Made by a program: the position numbers and the translations under genes. 24,106 nucleotides of DNA from a virus. Location of the stretch: IMG/VR virus record IMGVR_UViG_3300001848_000171, positions 1 to 24,106 of that record, one strand, 5' to 3'. Positions 4,242 to 22,039 of this stretch are shown here, piece after piece (positions within the stretch are counted from its first letter, which is position 1; every line of letters starts with the position of its first letter). The notes under the pieces are model-generated. The model was not told the DNA's origin, searched no databases, and saw only the letters and a list, made by a program, of their open reading frames with translations.

Positions 4242-4994
4242 ATGCCTAGAGCAAGAAAAAGAAATCAACCAGATATTAACGGTATGAGTCTCAAACAAAT
4301 GAAAAGAAGGAAGCCTATTAATGCTGACTATCTTTTAAACATTGAACCTCTTACAGATAACCAACGTGTTATGTTTGAGGAGTATGGTAAAGGACAGCAT
4401 CTATTTGTTTATGGTGCTGCTGGTACTGGTAAAACATTTGTGGCATTGTACCTAGCTCTTCGTGATGTACTGGATGAGAACACACCATACGAAAAAGTAT
4501 ATGTTGTTCGCTCTCTAGTTGCCACTAGGGAGATTGGATTCCTTCCTGGTACACATGAAGACAAAGCATCTCTCTATCAAATTCCATACAAAAATATGGT
4601 AAAATATATGTTTGAGATGCCTGATGATGCTTCGTTTGATATGCTCTATGAGAATCTCAAGCATCAGGAAACTGTTTCTTTCTGGTCTACTTCTTTCCTT
4701 AGAGGTACTACTCTAGATAAAGCAATTGTAATTGTGGATGAATGTCAGAATCTAAACTTCCATGAGTTGGATTCTATCATCACTAGGGTTGGTGAAGATA
4801 CAAAGATCATGTTCTGTGGTGATGCTAGTCAGTCTGACCTACAAAAAACAAATGAACGAACAGGTATCATTGACTTCCAAAGAATTCTACAACAAATGAA
4901 AGAAGTATCTCTCATTGAATTTGGTGTAGAAGATATTGTAAGATCTGGATTGATCAAGTCCTATATTATTGCTAAAATTAATCTTGGTTTCTAA
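4242..4994 (+). CDS. phoH: PhoH-like ATPase
   Basis: The 250-aa protein has a complete Walker A motif GAAGTGKT (residues 58-65) and a Walker B motif IVIVDECQN with D166-E167, followed by the CGDASQSDL sensor-like block. This is the arrangement of the PhoH family of P-loop ATPases. An N-terminal basic segment (PRARKRNQ; KQMKRRKP) may bind nucleic acid. phoH is very common in marine phages; although named for phosphate starvation in E. coli, its role in phage infection is not settled. ATG 4242 follows the previous stop by one base. The last base of its stop codon is the first base of the next ATG. Confidence 0.95.
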   Translation: MPRARKRNQPDINGMSLKQMKRRKPINADYLLNIEPLTDNQRVMFEEYGKGQHLFVYGAAGTGKTFVALYLALRDVLDENTPYEKVYVVRSLVATREIGFLPGTHEDKASLYQIPYKNMVKYMFEMPDDASFDMLYENLKHQETVSFWSTSFLRGTTLDKAIVIVDECQNLNFHELDSIITRVGEDTKIMFCGDASQSDLQKTNERTGIIDFQRILQQMKEVSLIEFGVEDIVRSGLIKSYIIAKINLGF

Positions 4995-10159: not shown

Positions 10160-10909
10160 GTGGCAAATAAATCAATTTCTACTTTTATGGAGACTATCGC
10201 CAAGCATGGTGGTATGTCTTACAGTAATAATTATGATGTTGAATTTATGTTTAAGAGTGATGCTATCATTCAAAGATTTAAATCTTTTGGTATTAGCACT
10301 AGTACTTCATTAACATTAACTAGTACTGACGCAAGTAACCCTGGTTCAATCGTTAAATTATTTTGTGACGAAGCTCAACTTCCAAATATTCAAGCTGCTA
10401 CTGGTCAGATTACAGGCATGATGCTTGGTGAAGGTATGGTTAATTATCCACACACCAGAATGTATTCTGACTTCCAACTTTCCTGGATGTGTGATGCTAA
10501 TATGACTCCATTAAAATTCTTGGAAGTGTGGTATAGTTGGATCTTTCAGGAGCTTGATACTACAGGAACACAAGTATCATCTGGTAAGTATCAAAAGAAA
10601 AAAACACTTGATGAAATAAAAGGTGGATCAGGAGCAGGTGGTGGTAATGCTATTGAGAGATTTAAATCAGTAAGACTTAATTATCCATCTACATATCTTT
10701 CTAATATCATTATTACAAAGACAGAAAGAAGTAGAAACGCTCCTAATGGTAGAGCACCTGTTTCATACACTATGATTGATGCTTTTCCATATAGTATTGA
10801 TGCTGTACCTCTTTCTTATGGAGCATCACAGGTAACTAAAGTGTCTGCTAACTTTTATTATGCTAAGCACTACGTTACTCATAATGATATCCATGGATTT
10901 GACGGATAA
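10160..10909 (+). CDS. gp54: Baseplate tail-tube initiator, gp54-like
   Basis: The 249-aa product starts at GTG 10160 (MANKSISTFMETIAKHGGMS). It shows the tail-tube fold pattern shared by gp19 and gp54: FCDEAQLPNIQAATGQITGM, then MYSDFQLSWMCDANMTPLKF and VWYSWIF, which corresponds to the final helix of tube subunits. A glycine-rich insert (GGSGAGGG) lies near residue 155. In T4, gp54 sits on gp48 and starts polymerisation of the gp19 tube. I prefer gp54 to gp19 because of its position beside gp48/gp53 and ahead of gp26, but gp19 cannot be excluded by eye. There is no Shine-Dalgarno sequence in the leader. Confidence 0.7.
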   Translation: MANKSISTFMETIAKHGGMSYSNNYDVEFMFKSDAIIQRFKSFGISTSTSLTLTSTDASNPGSIVKLFCDEAQLPNIQAATGQITGMMLGEGMVNYPHTRMYSDFQLSWMCDANMTPLKFLEVWYSWIFQELDTTGTQVSSGKYQKKKTLDEIKGGSGAGGGNAIERFKSVRLNYPSTYLSNIIITKTERSRNAPNGRAPVSYTMIDAFPYSIDAVPLSYGASQVTKVSANFYYAKHYVTHNDIHGFDG

Positions 10910-10936: not shown

Positions 10937-11656
10937 ATGCCTTTACCAAAGCCTACTGTACCAACTTATGAACTTGAGTTGCCATCTACAGGAAAGAAAA
11001 TTAAATACAGACCATTCTTAGTTAAGGAAGAAAAGATTCTATTAGTAGCAATGGAATCTGAAGATGAGAATGAAATTAAAAATGCTGTCAAAGATATTTT
11101 AAAGAACTGTATCCTAACTAGAGGTGTTAAACCAGAAGAACTTGCCTCTTTTGATTTGGAATATTTGTTCTTAAAGATTAGAGCAATTTCTGCTGGTGAA
11201 GATGTATCATTGAAAGTTACATGTCAAGATGATAATGAAACTGTAGTTAATGTTGACATCAACCTGAATGATGTTGAGGTATATAAACCTGAAGGTCATA
11301 CCAATAAAATTATGGTTGATGATACCATTGGTATGGTCATGAAGTATCCTGCTATGGATAGTTTTGTTAGTGTTACATTGATGGAGAATGATTTAGAGAC
11401 TACTGATGAAGTTTTTTCAATGTTGATATCATGTATCGATCAAATTTTTGAGGGTGATGAAGTATGGGATGCTGCTACAACACCTAAGAAAGAACTGCTT
11501 GGATTTATAGAAGGATTTACTCAGCAACAATTTGCTAAGATCCAGGAATTTTTTGATACCATGCCTGTACTACGCCATGAATTCAGTGTTGTTAACCCTA
11601 ACACAGGTGTTGAATCGACTTACACGTTGGAGGGTCTCCAATCTTTTTTCGGATAA
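10937..11656 (+). CDS. gp26: gp26-like baseplate hub protein / tail-assembly chaperone (short form)
   Basis: The 239-aa product resembles the T4 gp26 family (T4_baseplate; T4 gp26 is 208 aa): an N-terminal strand-rich part with YELELPSTGKKIKYRPFLVK, then KEEKILLVAMESED, LKIRAISAGEDVSLKVTCQD and a C-terminal helical part QQQFAKIQEFFDTMPVLRHE. T4 gp26 is needed to build the central hub. Its position just ahead of tape-measure-like genes and the -1 frameshift signal covering its last codons (TCT TTT TTC GGA TAA) suggest it acts as the G-type tail-assembly chaperone. In the normal frame it ends SFFG. A small fraction of ribosomes should shift and add 61 residues. Confidence 0.85.
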   Translation: MPLPKPTVPTYELELPSTGKKIKYRPFLVKEEKILLVAMESEDENEIKNAVKDILKNCILTRGVKPEELASFDLEYLFLKIRAISAGEDVSLKVTCQDDNETVVNVDINLNDVEVYKPEGHTNKIMVDDTIGMVMKYPAMDSFVSVTLMENDLETTDEVFSMLISCIDQIFEGDEVWDAATTPKKELLGFIEGFTQQQFAKIQEFFDTMPVLRHEFSVVNPNTGVESTYTLEGLQSFFG

Positions 11657-11699
11657 GTTTGTTCTATAATACTCTTGAGAATTACTATAGAACAAACTT
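11644..11699 (+). other. Programmed -1 ribosomal frameshift site (slippery TTTTTTC plus 14-bp stem)
   Basis: The heptamer T TTT TTC (11644-11650) lies in the correct phase of gp26 (codons TTT at 11645 and TTC at 11648). Four bases later begins a perfect 14-bp stem: AAGTTTGTTCTATA (11655-11668) with TATAGAACAAACTT (11686-11699), around a 17-nt loop. The gp26 stop TAA (11654-11656) lies between heptamer and stem and is bypassed by a -1 shift. There is no T-run after the stem, so it is not an intrinsic terminator. Fraying of the basal A-T pairs would give a spacer of 5-6 nt, normal for such signals. Confidence 0.8.
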
Positions 11700-11835
11700 C
11701 ACTCTTATGCAGGACCATAAATATAGCTTGACAGAGATTGAAGAAATGATACCATGGGAGAGAACTATTTACATCTCCTTATTGAATCAATATCTTAAAG
11801 AGAAAGAAGAACAACAGAAAGCCCAACAGAGATGA
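11650..11835 (+). CDS. -1 frame extension of gp26 (T-type chaperone domain, gp51 position)
   Basis: Reading in the -1 frame from C11650 gives 61 residues (RISLFYNTLENYYRTNF..., then the 42-aa ORF from ATG 11707) and stops at TGA 11833-11835, producing a fusion of about 299 aa. The core SLTEIEEMIPWERTIYISLL, followed by NQYLKEKEEQQKAQQR, is a helical, charged ending with the PWER-x-IY pattern I associate with frameshifted extensions of phage tail-assembly chaperones. ATG 11707 has no ribosome-binding site, which argues that this part is made mainly as a fusion. It overlaps the tape-measure-like gene as ATGA. Its place corresponds to T4 gene 51, but similarity to gp51 is not evident. Confidence 0.75.
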   Translation, partial: RISLFYNTLENYYRTNFTLMQDHKYSLTEIEEMIPWERTIYISLLNQYLKEKEEQQKAQQR

Positions 11836-14747
11836 ATCAAGAAGGCAACTCAGAACTAGAGAAAAGAAGTGTAGAACTTTCTATTAATGAGGTGCAATCC
11901 AATGATCAAACACAACCTGTTACAATAGATGTAGAAGCACCATCAAATGATCTTGCTGATAGGATGGCAAGTGCTTTTGATAGGAACTTAGATAAACTTA
12001 TTGAGGATGTACAAGCACCTCCACCACCAGTTAAAATATCTAAACCTAAGAAAGTAAAGGGTGTCAAGGTAAAGAAAGTTAGAACAGTAAAGATAAAACA
12101 ACATGCTTACAAACCTAAGCAAGGTAAAGACTCTAGCTTCAATGCTTTTGTAGGAAGTAAGATAGGATCTGCTTTTTCATTAGCAGCAACTGCTAGAAGA
12201 AATGCTAAACTAGCAGGTGAAGAAGCAAAACCTAAAGGTTATTTTTTAAAACAAGCATTAGGGTTTGAGTTTGGTGGAGATTTAATTAATAGAACGAGGG
12301 GAACATTTTCTAATGATCCTACAGCAGAAGATGATCCAAGTCTATCTAAGGGAGAAAGATTTGCTGCCAGGCTACAAAGAACTGAAGCTCCAATGGGAGT
12401 TAATAAATCAGCAAGCACTGTACCATATACTCAACCATCTTTATTTGATACTAATCAATACACACAGGTTGTTGATAATTCCTTAGGAGAACATATTCAA
12501 AAGGCGGTAAAGAAATTACAAAGATGTTTTGAAAAAGTTGATAAATCTCTATCAAATATATCAGCTGATAAAAATAAAGAAAAGCAAACAGTATCAGAAG
12601 AAAATACTACTATTGAAATTTTATCTGAGAAATTTTTAAAAGTAAAGGATACTATAAAAGAAAATAATGTATTGAGAAGAACTTTTAATACATTAAAATC
12701 TAAAGAAATAGAAGCGTATAAAAAAGCAGAAGAAAAAAGAAAAGAAGCTATTCAAGAATCTCAATTAGAGAATGAAAAAAATACTGCTGGCACTGTTGGT
12801 TACAATGATCCATATATAAACAAACCAAAAGGAAAAGGAATGCTTGAAAGAGCATGGGATTTTATTGCTGGTAATGATGATGAGGAAGATGATGGAGGTG
12901 ATGATAGTGGAGGTCCTAGTATAGATTTACCAGATAGAGAAAAACCTCCAAAACCTAGAGTCAAACCAAGAAGACCTGGATCAAGATTAAGATTAGCAAG
13001 AAGACAATTTAATAGAATGAGACGTGGTGTGGAAGGAGGAATAAAAAGAGCTGGAGAATTTGCTGCTGAAAAGGGTGGAAAAATTGGTGGGTTTCTACAA
13101 CGAAAGGGTGGAGATCTTTTAAATTTTGGTAAAAAATATGGAACAAAAGCTGTAGAAGCTTCAAAAGGATTGTGGGATAATATAGGAGAAAATATAGCTA
13201 AACGAGTTGCTTTTGCTGGGGCAAGAAACGCTGGTAAGTATGCTCCTGGTATATTATCAACAGGATTTTATGCAGCAGATACTGCTGATAGATTAAATAA
13301 AAAGGATTATTTTGGTGCTTGGTTGAATGGTATAGGTTATGGAGCAGATGTATTTGCTACTGGATCCGCTGCTGCTTCTGCTGGTCCACAAGCTCCTGCT
13401 ACTGGTGCTGCTGCTGGAACAGCAGAACTTGTTTCTGGTATTGCTGATAGTATTAATTTTGTTAGAGATATTTTTGGGTATTCGGAACCAAAAAAGAAAA
13501 TGTCTGAGGGTGGCATGGTTAAACTTGCCAAGGGAGGAATGGTTCCTGCTATGGTAGGTGAAGCAGGACCAGAATTAATTACACCAGCATCACCATTTGC
13601 TTCTATGCCTATGATGATGGGGTCTCCAGCAGCATCATCAATTGCTACTATACTAGGAGCAACATCTAGTGTAATGAATAGTGCTGGACCTGGCGCTGCT
13701 GCCATTAAACCTTTTATTGATCAAACCATATCTCCTCTTGCTAAAATATATGGTAAACCAGATTTGAATATACAAACTAAGGTAGGAAATAATTTAGGTA
13801 ATGTAAAAGAACCTGATCGAAAAGGTGGCATACTTGGATTGTTAAAAAAATTAGTAGGATTTATTACTGGTAAAGATGAGGGAGATGATGGAGAAGATGG
13901 TGGTGGAGATAATGGAAGTAATGATAATAATTATAATGGTGGCGGAGGAGATTGGGCTCCATTGTTAGCATTGATAAGAAAAGGTGAAGGTGGTTATGAA
14001 TCTATAGCTGGTAAAGATCCTATTAAAGGATTGACTGATTGGACTATTCAAAAAGTAGCTTCTTCTGCTCCATCATTTGCTGGTGCTTATCAATTAGATC
14101 CGCGTAGTGTTATTTCGTGGGCAAAAGATGTTGGATTGAAACCAGAAGATAAATTTAGTCCAGCAAATCAAGATAAAATTGCTGTTGGATTGATTGAAAA
14201 TAGAGCTCAAGGTAAAAAATGGAGATCAAAACAAATTAGTGATGAACAATTTGGTAATAATCTTGCTTCAATATGGGCAGCTCTTCCTGTTTTATCTCCT
14301 ACAAATGGCAAACAAAGAGGTGTTAGTTATTATGCTGGAGTAGGTTCAAACAAAGCAAATATAAAACCAGAAGAAGTAGAAGGAGCATTCAAACAAATAG
14401 GATCTGGATCATCTAATGTAGCATCTAACCCATCAACTACACCAACAAATCCTGGTAATCCATCTCCAACAACTAAAGATTCTAACCCTTCAAAAACAAA
14501 ACAAAGATCAGCAAACGCAACTAGATCAACTACTACACCATCTCCTTCTTCTAATACTAAACCAGTCACTCCTTCTCCATCTGTAGCTAATGATGGTGGT
14601 GGTATATTAAGCATCTTAAATCTTGGTGGTAAATCTTCTTCTGCTTCTGGTGGAGGTGGAGGTTTTGCTGATACATTTAAACCATTGATTGAAGCTCCTG
14701 CTGCTGCTTATACTGCTATACAGCATCTAAGACTTGCTCAGAATTAA
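11832..14747 (+). CDS. Tape-measure-like tail protein with muramidase-like domain, 971 aa
   Basis: Regions in order: disordered N terminus with a Lys/Val/Pro-rich stretch (residues about 60-95); a module shared with the next gene (about 105-190, KGYFLKQALGFEFGGDL, RTRGTFSNDP); a Lys/Glu coiled-coil region (about 215-325); an acidic patch (NDDEEDDGGDD); an Arg-rich block (RRPGSRLRLARRQFNRMRRG); an Ala/Gly-rich hydrophobic part (about 465-550); the tape-measure-type motif GGMVPAMVGEAGPELITP (GEAGPELI at 576-583); a muramidase-like domain from about residue 707 (LLALIRKGEGGYESI with E719 as candidate catalytic acid, then FAGAYQLDP) to about 850; and a Pro/Ser/Thr-rich end. It probably sets tail length and opens the cell wall. 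No T4 gp29 homolog is otherwise visible here. Confidence 0.72.
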   Translation: MNQEGNSELEKRSVELSINEVQSNDQTQPVTIDVEAPSNDLADRMASAFDRNLDKLIEDVQAPPPPVKISKPKKVKGVKVKKVRTVKIKQHAYKPKQGKDSSFNAFVGSKIGSAFSLAATARRNAKLAGEEAKPKGYFLKQALGFEFGGDLINRTRGTFSNDPTAEDDPSLSKGERFAARLQRTEAPMGVNKSASTVPYTQPSLFDTNQYTQVVDNSLGEHIQKAVKKLQRCFEKVDKSLSNISADKNKEKQTVSEENTTIEILSEKFLKVKDTIKENNVLRRTFNTLKSKEIEAYKKAEEKRKEAIQESQLENEKNTAGTVGYNDPYINKPKGKGMLERAWDFIAGNDDEEDDGGDDSGGPSIDLPDREKPPKPRVKPRRPGSRLRLARRQFNRMRRGVEGGIKRAGEFAAEKGGKIGGFLQRKGGDLLNFGKKYGTKAVEASKGLWDNIGENIAKRVAFAGARNAGKYAPGILSTGFYAADTADRLNKKDYFGAWLNGIGYGADVFATGSAAASAGPQAPATGAAAGTAELVSGIADSINFVRDIFGYSEPKKKMSEGGMVKLAKGGMVPAMVGEAGPELITPASPFASMPMMMGSPAASSIATILGATSSVMNSAGPGAAAIKPFIDQTISPLAKIYGKPDLNIQTKVGNNLGNVKEPDRKGGILGLLKKLVGFITGKDEGDDGEDGGGDNGSNDNNYNGGGGDWAPLLALIRKGEGGYESIAGKDPIKGLTDWTIQKVASSAPSFAGAYQLDPRSVISWAKDVGLKPEDKFSPANQDKIAVGLIENRAQGKKWRSKQISDEQFGNNLASIWAALPVLSPTNGKQRGVSYYAGVGSNKANIKPEEVEGAFKQIGSGSSNVASNPSTTPTNPGNPSPTTKDSNPSKTKQRSANATRSTTTPSPSSNTKPVTPSPSVANDGGGILSILNLGGKSSSASGGGGGFADTFKPLIEAPAAAYTAIQHLRLAQN

Positions 14748-14778: not shown

Positions 14779-17046
14779 ATGGGCGCTAGTACGGTTTCAT
14801 ATACTAAAGCAAATTACGGGAACCTAGGAAAGTGGTTTGGTGATAAGGTTAAATCTGCTGCAAACATGGCAGCGGAAGAAAGAAAGTATGCCAAAGAACA
14901 TGCTGAACAACAAAGAAAGGAAGGTGTACCTGAAGAAGAAATAAAAAAGACAGGTAAAGGATACTTCTTTGGTAAAGCATTGTCACATGAATTTGGTGGT
15001 GATTTAATTAGAAGAACAAGAGGAACATTCTCTAATGATCCATCAGATACAGAAGATCCAGCACTAACTAAACGTCAAAGGTTTTCTAACTTAGTTAGAG
15101 GTGGTGATGTAGTAACACCACAACCATATAAACAACTTGAACTAGATCTAGGTAACACTGGTGGTAAAGATAAGCAAGTTAATGTAGAAGATAAGAAATT
15201 AAAATCCTGGTTGACTGTAGCATTTGATGGCGTAGAAAAATCATATCAAACTATAGCAGATAAGTTATCTAATCTTTCTAAAGAAGATAAAGATACAAAT
15301 GATGAGCAAGTTAAAACCCATAGGTTAATAACAAAGGTTACTTCTGGATTAACTACTGTTAAAAACTTCTTCAATAAAAATAATAAGATACAAGAAGAAC
15401 AAAATAAAATAGAATCACAGCAATTAGAATTGAGTCTAGATCAATCTAATGCTGATGAGATGAAGCAAAGAGAAAATCAGTTAGAAGTACAAAAAAATTC
15501 TGATAGTGTACAACAAGTTAACGATCCTTACACACAACAAGATGGAGAAGATGAAGAGGGTGGAGGAAAGAGAAATCTTTTAGATAGAATGTTAGACTTT
15601 GATATGGATCGTCGTGGAAGATTTAGAAAGAAAGGTTTCAAAAGAAGATATGCTAGAAGAAAATTTAATAATTTCAAACGTGGATTAGGTAGAAGAACAA
15701 GAAGACTACGTAGGAGAGGAAGAGTAGGATTTGGTAGAGCTCTTAGAAGATTTAAATTATCTGAAGGTGGAACAGCAGCACCAAATATTACTAATAATAT
15801 AGATCAATCTACAGAGGTACAAACACCACAAGCACAGAATAATATAGTACCACTTTCAAAAGCTATAGAACCAAAGACTATTACAAAACCAGTACCAAAT
15901 GTAAAAGCAAAAACTAAATTAGCAAGGGGTGGTATTGTTGATAACCCAACTACTACATTACTAAGTCCTGGTCAGTCAGTGATACCATTGAATAGAAATA
16001 ATCCTGTAGCAGCAGCATTTAAACAACAAAAGCAATCCAATAATAATAAAAAAGATCCAGCAGGAAAACGAATGGGTGATCAATTAGCAACAGCATTACA
16101 GTTGCCAGCACAAGCAGCTGGTGGTTTGCTGTTGTCTACTATGGCATCTGTTTTTAAAAGACTTGGTGGTGTAGGACAGATGATTGCTCCATTCTTCACT
16201 CAATTATTCAGACCACTAGCAACTGTGTTTGGATTGCCTGCTACAGTTGTTGGATCATTATTGGGTGGTGGTCCAGCAGCTGCTGCTACTTTAGACAGTA
16301 AAGATATAGCAGATTTCCTTAAAGGTGGTAAAGATTCTGGTAAAAAACGTAAAGGTGGCAGCGGAGGAGGCGGTGGTGGAGGAGGAAATCCTCCTAGTTC
16401 TACACCAGGAAGTTTAATGGCTGATGTACAAGCAGACTTAGGTAAATCTGCTTCTGATATGAAAGGTGAGATATCTAGTAGTGGTGCTTCTGGTATAGTT
16501 GATCCAACAAAAGATGCGTGGTGTGCTGCCTATGTCAATTCACAATTGAAAAGAAATGGTATTCAAGGATCTGGATCTCCAGCAGCAGATAGTTTTGAGA
16601 AGTGGGGATCTCCAGTAGATAAAAATAATATTCAACCAGGAGATATAATTGTTGGTGATTATGGTGGAGGATCTAGATCACATGTTATGTTTGCTAATGG
16701 AACTCCTAAGGGTGGATACGTAGATCTAATTGGTGGTAATCAAAGTGGTAAAGTTAGTGCTGGTTCTATAGCATTATCGAAGATTGATTATGTAAGAAGA
16801 GCATCCACTGGAAATGTCACTGTAGCTACTAAACCAACAACAAATCCACAACCAGCTTCAAAACCAGTCGCCCCTAATACAAAACCATCTTCAGCAAATA
16901 AACCTACAACTACTGTTGTAAATAGTGGTGGATCTTCTAAACCAAAATCACCACCAGCAACACTAGATCCTATAGGAGCAGTGAGTGGTTTGATTTCTTT
17001 ATCTACTACAAATCCAGTATCTCTTCTTTATAAAGTTCATTGGTAA
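14779..17046 (+). CDS. Tape-measure-like tail protein with CHAP/NlpC-P60-like peptidase, 755 aa
   Basis: The N terminus (residues about 12-115) is paralogous to the preceding protein: GKGYFFGKALSHEFGGDLIR, RTRGTFSNDP, DPALTKRQRF. Then come a coiled-coil region (about 130-250), an acidic patch (GEDEEGGG), a very Arg-rich block (about 275-325) and a motif GGIVDNPTTTLLSPG similar to the tape-measure motif of its neighbour. After a Gly-rich linker, a cysteine peptidase domain (about 550-675) shows DAWCAAYVN with Cys582, RSHVMFANG with His635, and GGNQ with Asn654, fitting a CHAP/NlpC-P60-type peptidoglycan amidase or peptidase. A Pro/Thr-rich end follows. I keep ATG 14779 because homology with the paralog begins just after it. 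Confidence 0.72.
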   Translation: MGASTVSYTKANYGNLGKWFGDKVKSAANMAAEERKYAKEHAEQQRKEGVPEEEIKKTGKGYFFGKALSHEFGGDLIRRTRGTFSNDPSDTEDPALTKRQRFSNLVRGGDVVTPQPYKQLELDLGNTGGKDKQVNVEDKKLKSWLTVAFDGVEKSYQTIADKLSNLSKEDKDTNDEQVKTHRLITKVTSGLTTVKNFFNKNNKIQEEQNKIESQQLELSLDQSNADEMKQRENQLEVQKNSDSVQQVNDPYTQQDGEDEEGGGKRNLLDRMLDFDMDRRGRFRKKGFKRRYARRKFNNFKRGLGRRTRRLRRRGRVGFGRALRRFKLSEGGTAAPNITNNIDQSTEVQTPQAQNNIVPLSKAIEPKTITKPVPNVKAKTKLARGGIVDNPTTTLLSPGQSVIPLNRNNPVAAAFKQQKQSNNNKKDPAGKRMGDQLATALQLPAQAAGGLLLSTMASVFKRLGGVGQMIAPFFTQLFRPLATVFGLPATVVGSLLGGGPAAAATLDSKDIADFLKGGKDSGKKRKGGSGGGGGGGGNPPSSTPGSLMADVQADLGKSASDMKGEISSSGASGIVDPTKDAWCAAYVNSQLKRNGIQGSGSPAADSFEKWGSPVDKNNIQPGDIIVGDYGGGSRSHVMFANGTPKGGYVDLIGGNQSGKVSAGSIALSKIDYVRRASTGNVTVATKPTTNPQPASKPVAPNTKPSSANKPTTTVVNSGGSSKPKSPPATLDPIGAVSGLISLSTTNPVSLLYKVHW

Positions 17047-18466: not shown

Positions 18467-21400
18467 ATGGAACAAGTATTATCTACCCTCTTTCCAATAC
18501 ATCAAATAGGTTCCGATGGTTTCAACTGGTGGGTTGGACAGATCGAATCTAATAGTGGTGACGATCCTAAAAAATCTGGAAGATATAAGGTAAGAATTGT
18601 TGGACAGCATTTAAAAGATTGTAATGCTACCAAATCAGGTGACTTGCCATGGGCTAATGTAATGATGCCAGTCACTGTACCATTTACTGATGGTGGTACA
18701 AGTGGAGGTACAGTTAATTTAAAATTAGGTAACTGGGTTGTAGGATTTTATCTTGATAATGATAAACAGAAACCAATTATCATGGGATCAATTGGTCACA
18801 CTGCTGGTGCCACATTAAAAACTAATGTGGAAAAAGATCCTGATCCAAACTCAACATGTAAATCTTTTACTACATTTTTAGATCCAAAGTCTAATCCATA
18901 TCTTCATGCTCCTTTACCAGAAAAAGATAAGAAGAGTGGAGATACAACAAAAGATGATACAAAGTATACTAAAGTAGGTGAAGCTGGTCTTCCTGCTATC
19001 GCTACGGACACACCTCCTGCTGCTTTCTATGGACTGTTTGCTGAGAATACTGCTACCAATCCAACAGGTTCTAAAGTTTGTGTAGAGATTGCCAATCCAA
19101 AGTGTGGTTCTGAATCAGATTTGAAAGGTGGACTGACTAATATTCTCGGACAAATGTTGGCTGCTAATCAACAATCAGGAGGGCAGTTAGGAACTTATTA
19201 TGTTAGCAAAGTTAATGGTGAACTAACCAATTATATTAACAATGGTAGAGAGTATATAAACAAAGCGATTAGACTTGTCACTAGTTTCATTAACCGCATC
19301 AAAGGTGAGATTGTTAAGTTAATAAGAAAAGGTGTTGATAGTTTAGTACAGTTACTACTCACAGAAGATGTTGCTGCTAAAGATTCTTTAGGAAATGTTA
19401 ATACTGGTCCAGTAAACCCAGACCTAGGTATCAAACCTTTTGCTCCTGTAACTAAGAAACAAAGTAGACTCAAACCAATTCTAGATGCTGTCAATAAAGT
19501 ATTAGAAGATCTTGGTTGTAGCATAGCAGATCTTACAGATAAAATTGCTCAGTGGTTGACTGATCTTTTGTTTGGTTACTTGATGGATGCTTTCAATGCT
19601 GCCACATGTTTAATCAATTCATTAGTAGATGGAATTATCAATCAGATAATGAGTTACTTGGATGAACTCATTGCTTCTGTTCTTGGACCTCTTCAAGAGT
19701 TATTGGCAATAGTAGCATCGCCGTTAGATCTTATTGGATCTGCTATTAATAGTGTGTTCCAATTGCTGGGCATTTCTTGTGATGGACCTGGATCTCAGTG
19801 TGAAAAGGTAACAAAAGAATGTACTGATTGTGGAACAGATGAAAAGAAAGATTGGTTAGATGATTTGATATCACAGTTAGAAAATGGACCATCTTATCCT
19901 GGTTCTGTTTGTCCAGATGCTCAATCAACAGCAATCTTAGATACGCCAACAAATATTATACCAATCGGTGGTGTTCCATCACCAGTTCCAACACCATCTC
20001 CTATTGACACAGTAGTTCCTGGAGAAAAAGTAATTAAATATCAATCAAGTAATATTATTACAGTTGAAGGAAGGGATGCTGTCTTTACTGTTCTTAGAAC
20101 AGGTAACACAACAGTATCTTCAAGTGTAAGTTACACTACAATCAATGGATCGGCTACATTAGGAGTTGACTTTGTTGCTGCCACTGCTAGTACAGGAACG
20201 ATAGGATTTGCTCCTGGTGAAACCAGTAAGCAAGTTATCTACACAACTTTAGTTGATAATCTTGTCGAAGGAACAGAAAATTTCATATTTAGATTAAGTG
20301 ATGGAACAATTCCGCCAGGACATATTAATGTTTATCCAGATGGAAAAGATTTTACCTGTGAAATTTTAGATTATACTGGAGCTGGAAGCACTCCTGGTGG
20401 AGGTGGTGGAGGAGGTGGTGGAGGAACAACACCTACAGTCCCACCAATTCTTTCTATCACACAACCAGTAGTAGCTTTACCTATTCAACTCAATCCAATC
20501 CCTGTCATCCCATCGTACAGTGTAAACACAGATAAAAATTCTTATCAAGAAGGAGAGGTTGTGGTATTCAAAATTACTACAGTAAATGTTCCTGATAATA
20601 CTGTTCTCAATTACACTATGGATGGTACATATATTACAACAGAAGACATTGTTGGTGGACAATTAACAGGATCATTTACAGTATTAAATAATCAATCTCA
20701 AGTTTCAATTACTCTAGCAACCAATGTAGATACTGATGATGAAACAACTGATGAAACATTATTCTTTAGAATCGATGATACTAATGCCTTCACATCAATT
20801 ACAATTCTTGGTGAAGCATCTACCACTCCAGTCTATTCTGTAATAGCTGATAAGTATTCTTTAGCAGAAGGAGAAACAGTTACATACACAATCACTACAG
20901 TAAATGTTTCAAACAATACTGTATTAAACTACACTTTATCTGGTGATCAAATTACAAAAGATGATATTGCTAGTGGATCTTTAACAGGATCATTTACAAT
21001 ACAAAACAATACAGCAACAGTAGAAGTTAAAATAGCAGAAGATTCTATTGTAGAGCAAGCAGAACTATTGACATTTAAAATTGATAATACAACAGCATCC
21101 GTTGATGTAGTTATCACTGCTCAAAGTCAACCGTTTACAATTGATACAAACATACCTACGTATGCTTTACAAACAGATAAGTTCCAGTACGAAGAAGGAG
21201 AAACAATAGTTTATACTGTAACTACAACTAATGTTGCTGATGGTACAAAACTACAATACTCATTGTTCGGGGAACAAATTACAGCATCAGATATTAGCAC
21301 AGGGTCTTTGTATGGAACGTTCGTGATCATTAATAATCAAGCGAAGTTCTATGTCACTATAGAAAAAGATTCTGTTATAGAAAATGATGAGTCAATGAGA

Positions 21401-22039
21401 TGTGTTATCAGTGGTACTAATGCCTTTGCTGATATTATTATTCTAGGACAAATTACACCAGAAGATAATAAACCAGAGGACAAGATCATTAAAGAACCAT
21501 GCTACAAGCAGCCAATCTTTGGTGCTCCAATCACTGATGCTAAAGGAGCAATCATTAGTATTCCTATTTTAGATTCTGGTTGCCCATATCAAGAACCACC
21601 TAAGATTATTATTACGGGTGGAGGTTATGGTGCTTCTGCTATTGCTTTATTGAATGATAAAGGATTAGTTTCAGAAGTAAGAGTTACTAGGGGTGGCATT
21701 GGATACCTGAAGAAAACTGCTCTCGAAGCAAACCTATCTTGTGTTATCGATTCATTTACATTACTAAATCCTGGCAGAGGATATACATCTGAACCAGAAG
21801 TTTATTTAAATGGTATTCCTAATCTAGCAAGAGCAAGAGTTAACGAACGAGGGTTTGTTTATAGTGTAGAGATCATAGATAGACAAACAAAATACACTGA
21901 GTTACCTGAGGTTACTATCATTGGTGGTGGTGGAGCAGGAGCCAGAGTTATCGCTTCTCTAACTTGCCTAGATATAGCAGAACTTGAGCGTAATGGTTAT
22001 GCCAAGATCGGAACTGGTAAATATATTGACTGCCCATAA
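18467..22039 (+). CDS. gp5: gp5-like hub/spike protein with Ig-like repeats and no lysozyme domain, 1190 aa
   Basis: Residues 1-125 form a gp5/VgrG-type OB domain (WWVGQIESNSGDDPKKSGRY, VRIVGQHL, PWANVMMPVT, GNWVVGFYLDNDKQKPIIMG). A helical part and an unusual hydrophobic segment bounded by cysteines follow (351-438). Next come a Calx-beta-like domain (about 525-635), a linker of ten glycines (about 645-655), three tandem repeats of about 105-109 residues starting near 684, 790 and 899 (each with DK...EGE..., then LTGSF or LYGTF), and a C-terminal Gly-rich strand region (about 1010-1170: TGGGYGASAIALL, RGGIGY, GGGGAGARV). The T4 lysozyme segment is not present. The ATG follows the gp27 stop by one base. 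Confidence 0.8.
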   Translation: MEQVLSTLFPIHQIGSDGFNWWVGQIESNSGDDPKKSGRYKVRIVGQHLKDCNATKSGDLPWANVMMPVTVPFTDGGTSGGTVNLKLGNWVVGFYLDNDKQKPIIMGSIGHTAGATLKTNVEKDPDPNSTCKSFTTFLDPKSNPYLHAPLPEKDKKSGDTTKDDTKYTKVGEAGLPAIATDTPPAAFYGLFAENTATNPTGSKVCVEIANPKCGSESDLKGGLTNILGQMLAANQQSGGQLGTYYVSKVNGELTNYINNGREYINKAIRLVTSFINRIKGEIVKLIRKGVDSLVQLLLTEDVAAKDSLGNVNTGPVNPDLGIKPFAPVTKKQSRLKPILDAVNKVLEDLGCSIADLTDKIAQWLTDLLFGYLMDAFNAATCLINSLVDGIINQIMSYLDELIASVLGPLQELLAIVASPLDLIGSAINSVFQLLGISCDGPGSQCEKVTKECTDCGTDEKKDWLDDLISQLENGPSYPGSVCPDAQSTAILDTPTNIIPIGGVPSPVPTPSPIDTVVPGEKVIKYQSSNIITVEGRDAVFTVLRTGNTTVSSSVSYTTINGSATLGVDFVAATASTGTIGFAPGETSKQVIYTTLVDNLVEGTENFIFRLSDGTIPPGHINVYPDGKDFTCEILDYTGAGSTPGGGGGGGGGGTTPTVPPILSITQPVVALPIQLNPIPVIPSYSVNTDKNSYQEGEVVVFKITTVNVPDNTVLNYTMDGTYITTEDIVGGQLTGSFTVLNNQSQVSITLATNVDTDDETTDETLFFRIDDTNAFTSITILGEASTTPVYSVIADKYSLAEGETVTYTITTVNVSNNTVLNYTLSGDQITKDDIASGSLTGSFTIQNNTATVEVKIAEDSIVEQAELLTFKIDNTTASVDVVITAQSQPFTIDTNIPTYALQTDKFQYEEGETIVYTVTTTNVADGTKLQYSLFGEQITASDISTGSLYGTFVIINNQAKFYVTIEKDSVIENDESMRCVISGTNAFADIIILGQITPEDNKPEDKIIKEPCYKQPIFGAPITDAKGAIISIPILDSGCPYQEPPKIIITGGGYGASAIALLNDKGLVSEVRVTRGGIGYLKKTALEANLSCVIDSFTLLNPGRGYTSEPEVYLNGIPNLARARVNERGFVYSVEIIDRQTKYTELPEVTIIGGGGAGARVIASLTCLDIAELERNGYAKIGTGKYIDCP

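Follow-up and report, generated by a model that had tools for sequence, protein, structure and literature searches.

A conserved -1 frameshift signal between gp26-like and gp51-like sequences in a fragment of an uncultivated T4-like cyanophage

The locus and its genes

Is the short gp51-like sequence that follows a gp26-like gene in T4-like cyanophages a small gene of its own, or is it the C-terminal part of a longer protein that ribosomes reach by shifting back one base at the end of gp26? This question is raised by a 24-kb fragment of an uncultivated virus (24,106 nucleotides, hereafter the window), whose relatives are T4-like cyanophages and for which a preliminary description had proposed a programmed -1 frameshift fusing a gp26-like protein to an open reading frame (ORF) at the gp51 position. 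The gp26-like gene (10937-11656, + strand) encodes a 239-aa protein, probably the short form of a tail assembly chaperone (TAC-N), that matches phrog_150 (E = 9.1e-76) and PF12322 (E = 3.6e-72) and aligns with T4 gp26 as far as the end of the latter. The gene upstream (10160-10909) encodes the tail tube protein (PF23849, E = 1.7e-54). An AlphaFold model of the short form alone was confident (pLDDT 90.4), and a PDB fold search with it yielded no significant match to any structure. The HK97 chaperone 2OB9 came third, with a non-significant E value of 1.5 and a probability of 0.41, the best among the matches listed. Likewise, the gp26 profile had no significant match among the sequences of solved structures.

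Downstream lies a gene in the tape-measure position (11832-14747, + strand, 971 aa), which overlaps the end of the gp51-like sequence as ATGA. Its product matches phrog_5453, a family of unknown function, and contains an endolysin-like stretch, with no match to a tape measure family, such that we consider it a putative tape measure by position. This ORF and the next one (14779-17046, 755 aa) are related over ~300 residues (29% identity, E = 2e-29) and both carry lysin-like stretches. The pair may have arisen when a tape-measure-like or virion-lysin gene was duplicated in tandem. In S-CREM2, a cyanophage with a long tail (418 nm), two “endolysin” ORFs of about 1565 and 1456 aa lie side by side (PMC10665884) and might be enlarged counterparts of this pair. 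Further downstream, a 1190-aa gp5-like hub/lysozyme protein (18467-22039) combines a Gp5 OB domain with a Calx-beta domain.

The slip site and the frame that it opens

The gp26-like gene ends with the codons TCT TTT TTC GGA TAA, so that direct reading places the heptamer T_TTT_TTC (11644-11650, + strand) in the exact codon phase required for -1 slippage, as had been claimed. Taken alone, such a heptamer is cheap evidence, because the genes of the window contain 45 in-phase XXXYYYZ sites; the weight of the case rests on its position, phase, and conservation. We therefore read 231 distinct sites in relatives, coming from the first 80 viral contigs, the phages S-PM2 and S-RSM4, further scans (those with the single sequences of KVP40 and DLP6 yielding two loci each), and annotated phages. 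TTTTTTC was present in every sequence of the first 80 contigs and in S-PM2 and S-RSM4, and the whole set comprised 217 TTTTTTC, seven TTTTTTA, five TTTTTTT, one TTTTTTG, and one non-canonical sequence. In 230 of the 231, a T_TTT_TTN heptamer lies directly ahead of the stop and leads into a gp51-like extension, although such counts overstate the statistics since the relatives are not independent. The 0-frame stop that the proposed frameshift would bypass (TAA, 11654-11656, + strand) follows the heptamer by a single codon, with a spacing of 3 nt that recurs in 226 of those 230. The variants ending in TTA, TTT, and TTG all keep the capacity for slippage, yet TTA and TTG replace the 0-frame phenylalanine by leucine; therefore, selection appears to act on the slippery property. 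Elsewhere in gp26, just 9 of the 68 Phe-Phe pairs are encoded by TTT TTC. The same slip site occurs in phages of Prochlorococcus, Stenotrophomonas, Desulfovibrio, Cronobacter, Aeromonas, Vibrio (KVP40), and Rhizobium, and it is retained even where the GC content of the phage sequence reaches 54-55% (DLP6 and YB07). A broken heptamer or a closed -1 frame in relatives, both named beforehand as outcomes that would speak against a frameshift, did not occur. The sole exception among the 231 is the most distant relative, Vibrio phage K452 (~23% identical), which reads CTT TTT GCG TAA instead of a canonical heptamer and where translational coupling may be in use. There (positions 4700-4905 of locus L094), the -1 frame still runs without interruption into a short ORF, whose start lies at a stop-start overlap.

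From position 11650, the -1 frame of the window reads CGG ATA AGT and stays open for 61 residues until a TGA at 11833-11835, which shares bases with the ATG (11832) where the next gene starts. The earlier claim that this frame runs past the gp26 stop for 61 codons and joins a 42-codon ORF was thus borne out by direct reading. This extension (11650-11835, + strand) would complete a 299-aa fusion (TAC-NC), whereas the 42-codon ORF inside it (11707-11835, + strand), starting with ATG, corresponds to the form often annotated in relatives as the gp51 gene. The -1 peptide matches phrog_634 (E = 3.2e-27) and also positions 239-281 of phrog_150, a match to the C-terminal part of that family that is expected because T4 gp51 itself matches phrog_150 over nearly its full length (see below). 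Wherever its end was in the sequence, the extension of relatives measured 55-68 codons, and a P-x-E motif was found in 224 of 226 of them. The PWER core highlighted in the preliminary description does belong to gp51-like proteins, but the association with the lambda G/GT proteins that had been drawn from it finds no counterpart in sequence similarity.

Coding selection was examined in the stretch that runs from the gp26 stop to the first common ATG (codons 3-17). Counting single-base codon differences between pairs of sequences, the -1 frame shows 8362 synonymous versus 3308 non-synonymous differences, while the other two frames show about 2000 versus 11,000. Judged from these counts, the stretch is evolving as a -1-frame protein under purifying selection. 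In 37 of 63 sequences, the extension has no ATG, GTG, or TTG among its first eight codons, and no Shine-Dalgarno (SD)-like sequence was detected ahead of the first ATG. The combination of -1-frame selection, scarce start codons, and lack of an SD-like sequence argues that this stretch is translated, with ribosomes likely entering it from gp26 in most lineages. No separate start or ribosome-binding site is conserved in relatives, another outcome that had been set out in advance as adverse to the proposal. Nevertheless, two observations initially advanced in favor of the frameshift had to be given up as evidence. The 42-codon ORF is indeed devoid of an SD-like sequence, but this is uninformative because the gp26-like gene of the window also lacks one, as do most of its homologs (an SD-like sequence precedes it in only 15 of 82 sequences). 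Similarly, the ATGA junction exists in the window at 11832 but is not a conserved feature, being shared by only 6 of the 64 extension ORFs.

A stem-loop rebuilt in several registers

Beginning 4 nt past the heptamer, as announced in the preliminary description, a perfect 14-bp stem closes a 17-nt loop (arms 11655-11668 and 11686-11699, span 11655-11699, + strand) and constitutes a putative stimulatory element. No other perfect 14-bp inverted repeat with a loop as short as 3 to about 40 nt occurs in the window, and its folding is stronger than that of dinucleotide shuffles (z = -3.05) and of codon-synonymous shuffles that keep the -1-frame protein (z = -4.2). Across 63 distinct sequences, the mean best-helix score was 18.9, compared with 11.5 after synonymous randomization (100 runs, sd 0.5, maximum 13.0), figures that overstate independence because the sequences are related. 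The stem exceeds what the -1-frame protein requires.

In these 63 sequences, three stem registers recur in different lineages: one mostly formed by a 9-bp stem with an 8-nt loop located 7 nt past the heptamer (29 sequences), another with stems of 6-12 bp (10 sequences), and that of the window and S-PM2 (9 sequences), the spacing from the heptamer ranging from 4 to 10 nt. With regard to the compensatory changes that the preliminary description suggested looking for, some variable positions remain paired, for example as C-G or T-A in one pair and as T-G or T-A in another. A simple stem was absent in 5 of the 63, and in several further relatives the folding was no better than that of randomized codons. 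We tentatively entertain the idea, somewhat less probable than its opposite, that within this one gene family, while heptamer and position stayed fixed, different cyanophage lineages rebuilt the stem in three or more pairing registers under the added constraint of the -1-frame protein, which could provide a natural series linking stem geometry to the ratio between short and long products. As far as the accessible parts of the literature allow us to tell, these registers are the part of the system for which no published report could be traced.

Probably one gene in cyanophages, two genes in T4

Both products belong by sequence similarity to the T4 gp26/gp51 family (phrog_150, phrog_634, and PF12322). 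A profile of the fused protein matches T4 gp26 through the GLKEFF motif at its C-terminus, which corresponds to the slip site, and matches T4 gp51 over both body and extension (hhalign probability 97), the extension aligning with the gp51 C-terminus. The match of T4 gp51 to phrog_150 covers almost the entire protein (E = 2.6e-84), and T4 gp26 and gp51 resemble one another (E = 2e-6 in a single comparison). Of these two T4 hub assembly chaperones, gp26 thus corresponds to the short product and gp51 to the short-form body plus the extension, that is, the whole fusion; therefore, T4 encodes both forms as separate genes. Frameshifting is reportedly conserved in several T4-like groups according to the abstract of a 2022 study, T4 using its genes 26 and 51. 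These two T4 genes lie on opposite strands and involve no frameshift, in contrast with the single, probably frameshifted gene of the window; cyanophages, KVP40, and others appear from their sequences to make the short and long forms from one gene. Assembly requires T4 gp51, but the finished particle does not contain it (PMC3004832), and cyanophage gp51 has been described as ~20% of the T4 gp51 length and matching its C-terminus (Sullivan 2010, PMC3037559). In KVP40, the GenBank note for the small ORF KVP40.0327 (positions 4819-4986 of locus L093) likens it to the C-terminal 40 residues of T4 gp51.

The locus also resembles lambda G/GT, where a -1 frameshift occurs near the end of a short chaperone gene that directly precedes the gene for the tape measure, although the lambda slippery site is GGGAAAG instead of TTTTTTC. 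Nonetheless, no homology with lambda GT was found: the comparison with lambda G, T, and GT revealed no sequence similarity (hmmsearch scores below zero), so that the window locus may work like G/GT but descent from a common ancestor is unsupported. The idea that gp26 and gp51 are the T4-lineage equivalents of G and GT, already put forward in the preliminary description, fits T4, with gp26 as the short form and gp51 as the long one. Another parallel in layout is the TAC locus of Vandenendeviridae/Andersonviridae (phage Adele, PMC12846349), a different phage family, which has a conserved -1 frameshift at a poly-T sequence (GTTTTT) at the TAC-N end and whose downstream portion had been wrongly annotated as an ORF of its own.

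The preliminary description knew of no report of such a frameshift in T4-like cyanophages. The TAC genes of T4-like phages were reportedly identified by Vladimirov, Gautam and Davidson (Virology 2022;566:9-15), a work cited for T4-like phages with a short gene and a longer fusion gene (PRFect, PMC10885494) and for poly-T slippery sites in their TAC-N genes (PMC12846349). It concerns the same gene pair 26/51, whereas the window comes from an uncultivated phage. The frameshift finding is therefore correct but already known in kind, a confirmation and not a discovery.

Competing readings and implications

Considering these data together, the gp26-like gene and its extension very probably encode a tail assembly chaperone produced as TAC-N and TAC-NC via programmed -1 frameshifting. 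Most ribosomes would stop at 11654 and release the 239-aa short form; a minority, aided by the stem at 11655-11699, would slip back one base on T_TTT_TTC, bypass the stop, and produce a form of 299 aa that ends in the gp51-like domain (61 residues). If the two products act like lambda G and GT, the short one would cover the tape measure protein, while the tail of the long one would bring in tube subunits as the tail is assembled, nucleating the tube. What the sequences show is the signal with its phase, the stem, the conservation of these elements, the coding selection in the -1 frame, and the match of the products to T4 gp26/gp51; that ribosomes slip in infected cells, in what proportion the two forms are made, and that they serve as chaperones is what we infer.

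The main competitor is a separate small gp51 gene with its own start (ATG at 11707 or TTG at 11659), coupled to gp26 termination. GenBank lists such a gene in S-PM2, S-RSM4, P-HM1, KVP40, and others, and the heptamer-less Vibrio phage K452, whose next ORF begins at a stop-start overlap, would suit it. However, the annotated starts vary among relatives, the first ATG lacks an SD-like sequence, and coding selection in the -1 frame extends upstream of the first common ATG, where no start codon is conserved. A separate gene would also leave the fixed phase of the heptamer unexplained and sits uneasily with T4, where the domain belongs to a longer protein whose body resembles gp26. We regard it as very unlikely. 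Even more improbable is transcriptional slippage, in which RNA polymerase would stutter on the T run and join the frames in mRNAs of altered length. The six-T run, which reaches seven or more T in a few relatives, invites this idea, but most relatives have only six, a short run for polymerase slippage, and such a process requires neither the ribosomal codon phase nor a stem at 4-10 nt, both of which have been kept. Chance, with a run of T arising in an AT-rich gene, an unrelated hairpin nearby, and a frame open by accident, could be invoked in view of the AT-rich window and its many in-phase heptamers, but it is refuted by the near-universal conservation of the slip site, the -1-frame selection, and the excess of stems, and we give it almost no credence.

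Under programmed frameshifting, what hundreds of cyanophage genomes carry as a small annotated “gp51” gene is most likely no separate gene but the C-terminal portion of the frameshift product, and the length of cyanophage gp51, about a fifth of that of T4 gp51 (PMC3037559), is thereby explained. In that sense, and in line with a concept already present in the 2022 literature, the hub-assembly “catalyst” gp51 of T4 can be understood as a tape-measure chaperone in its long form.
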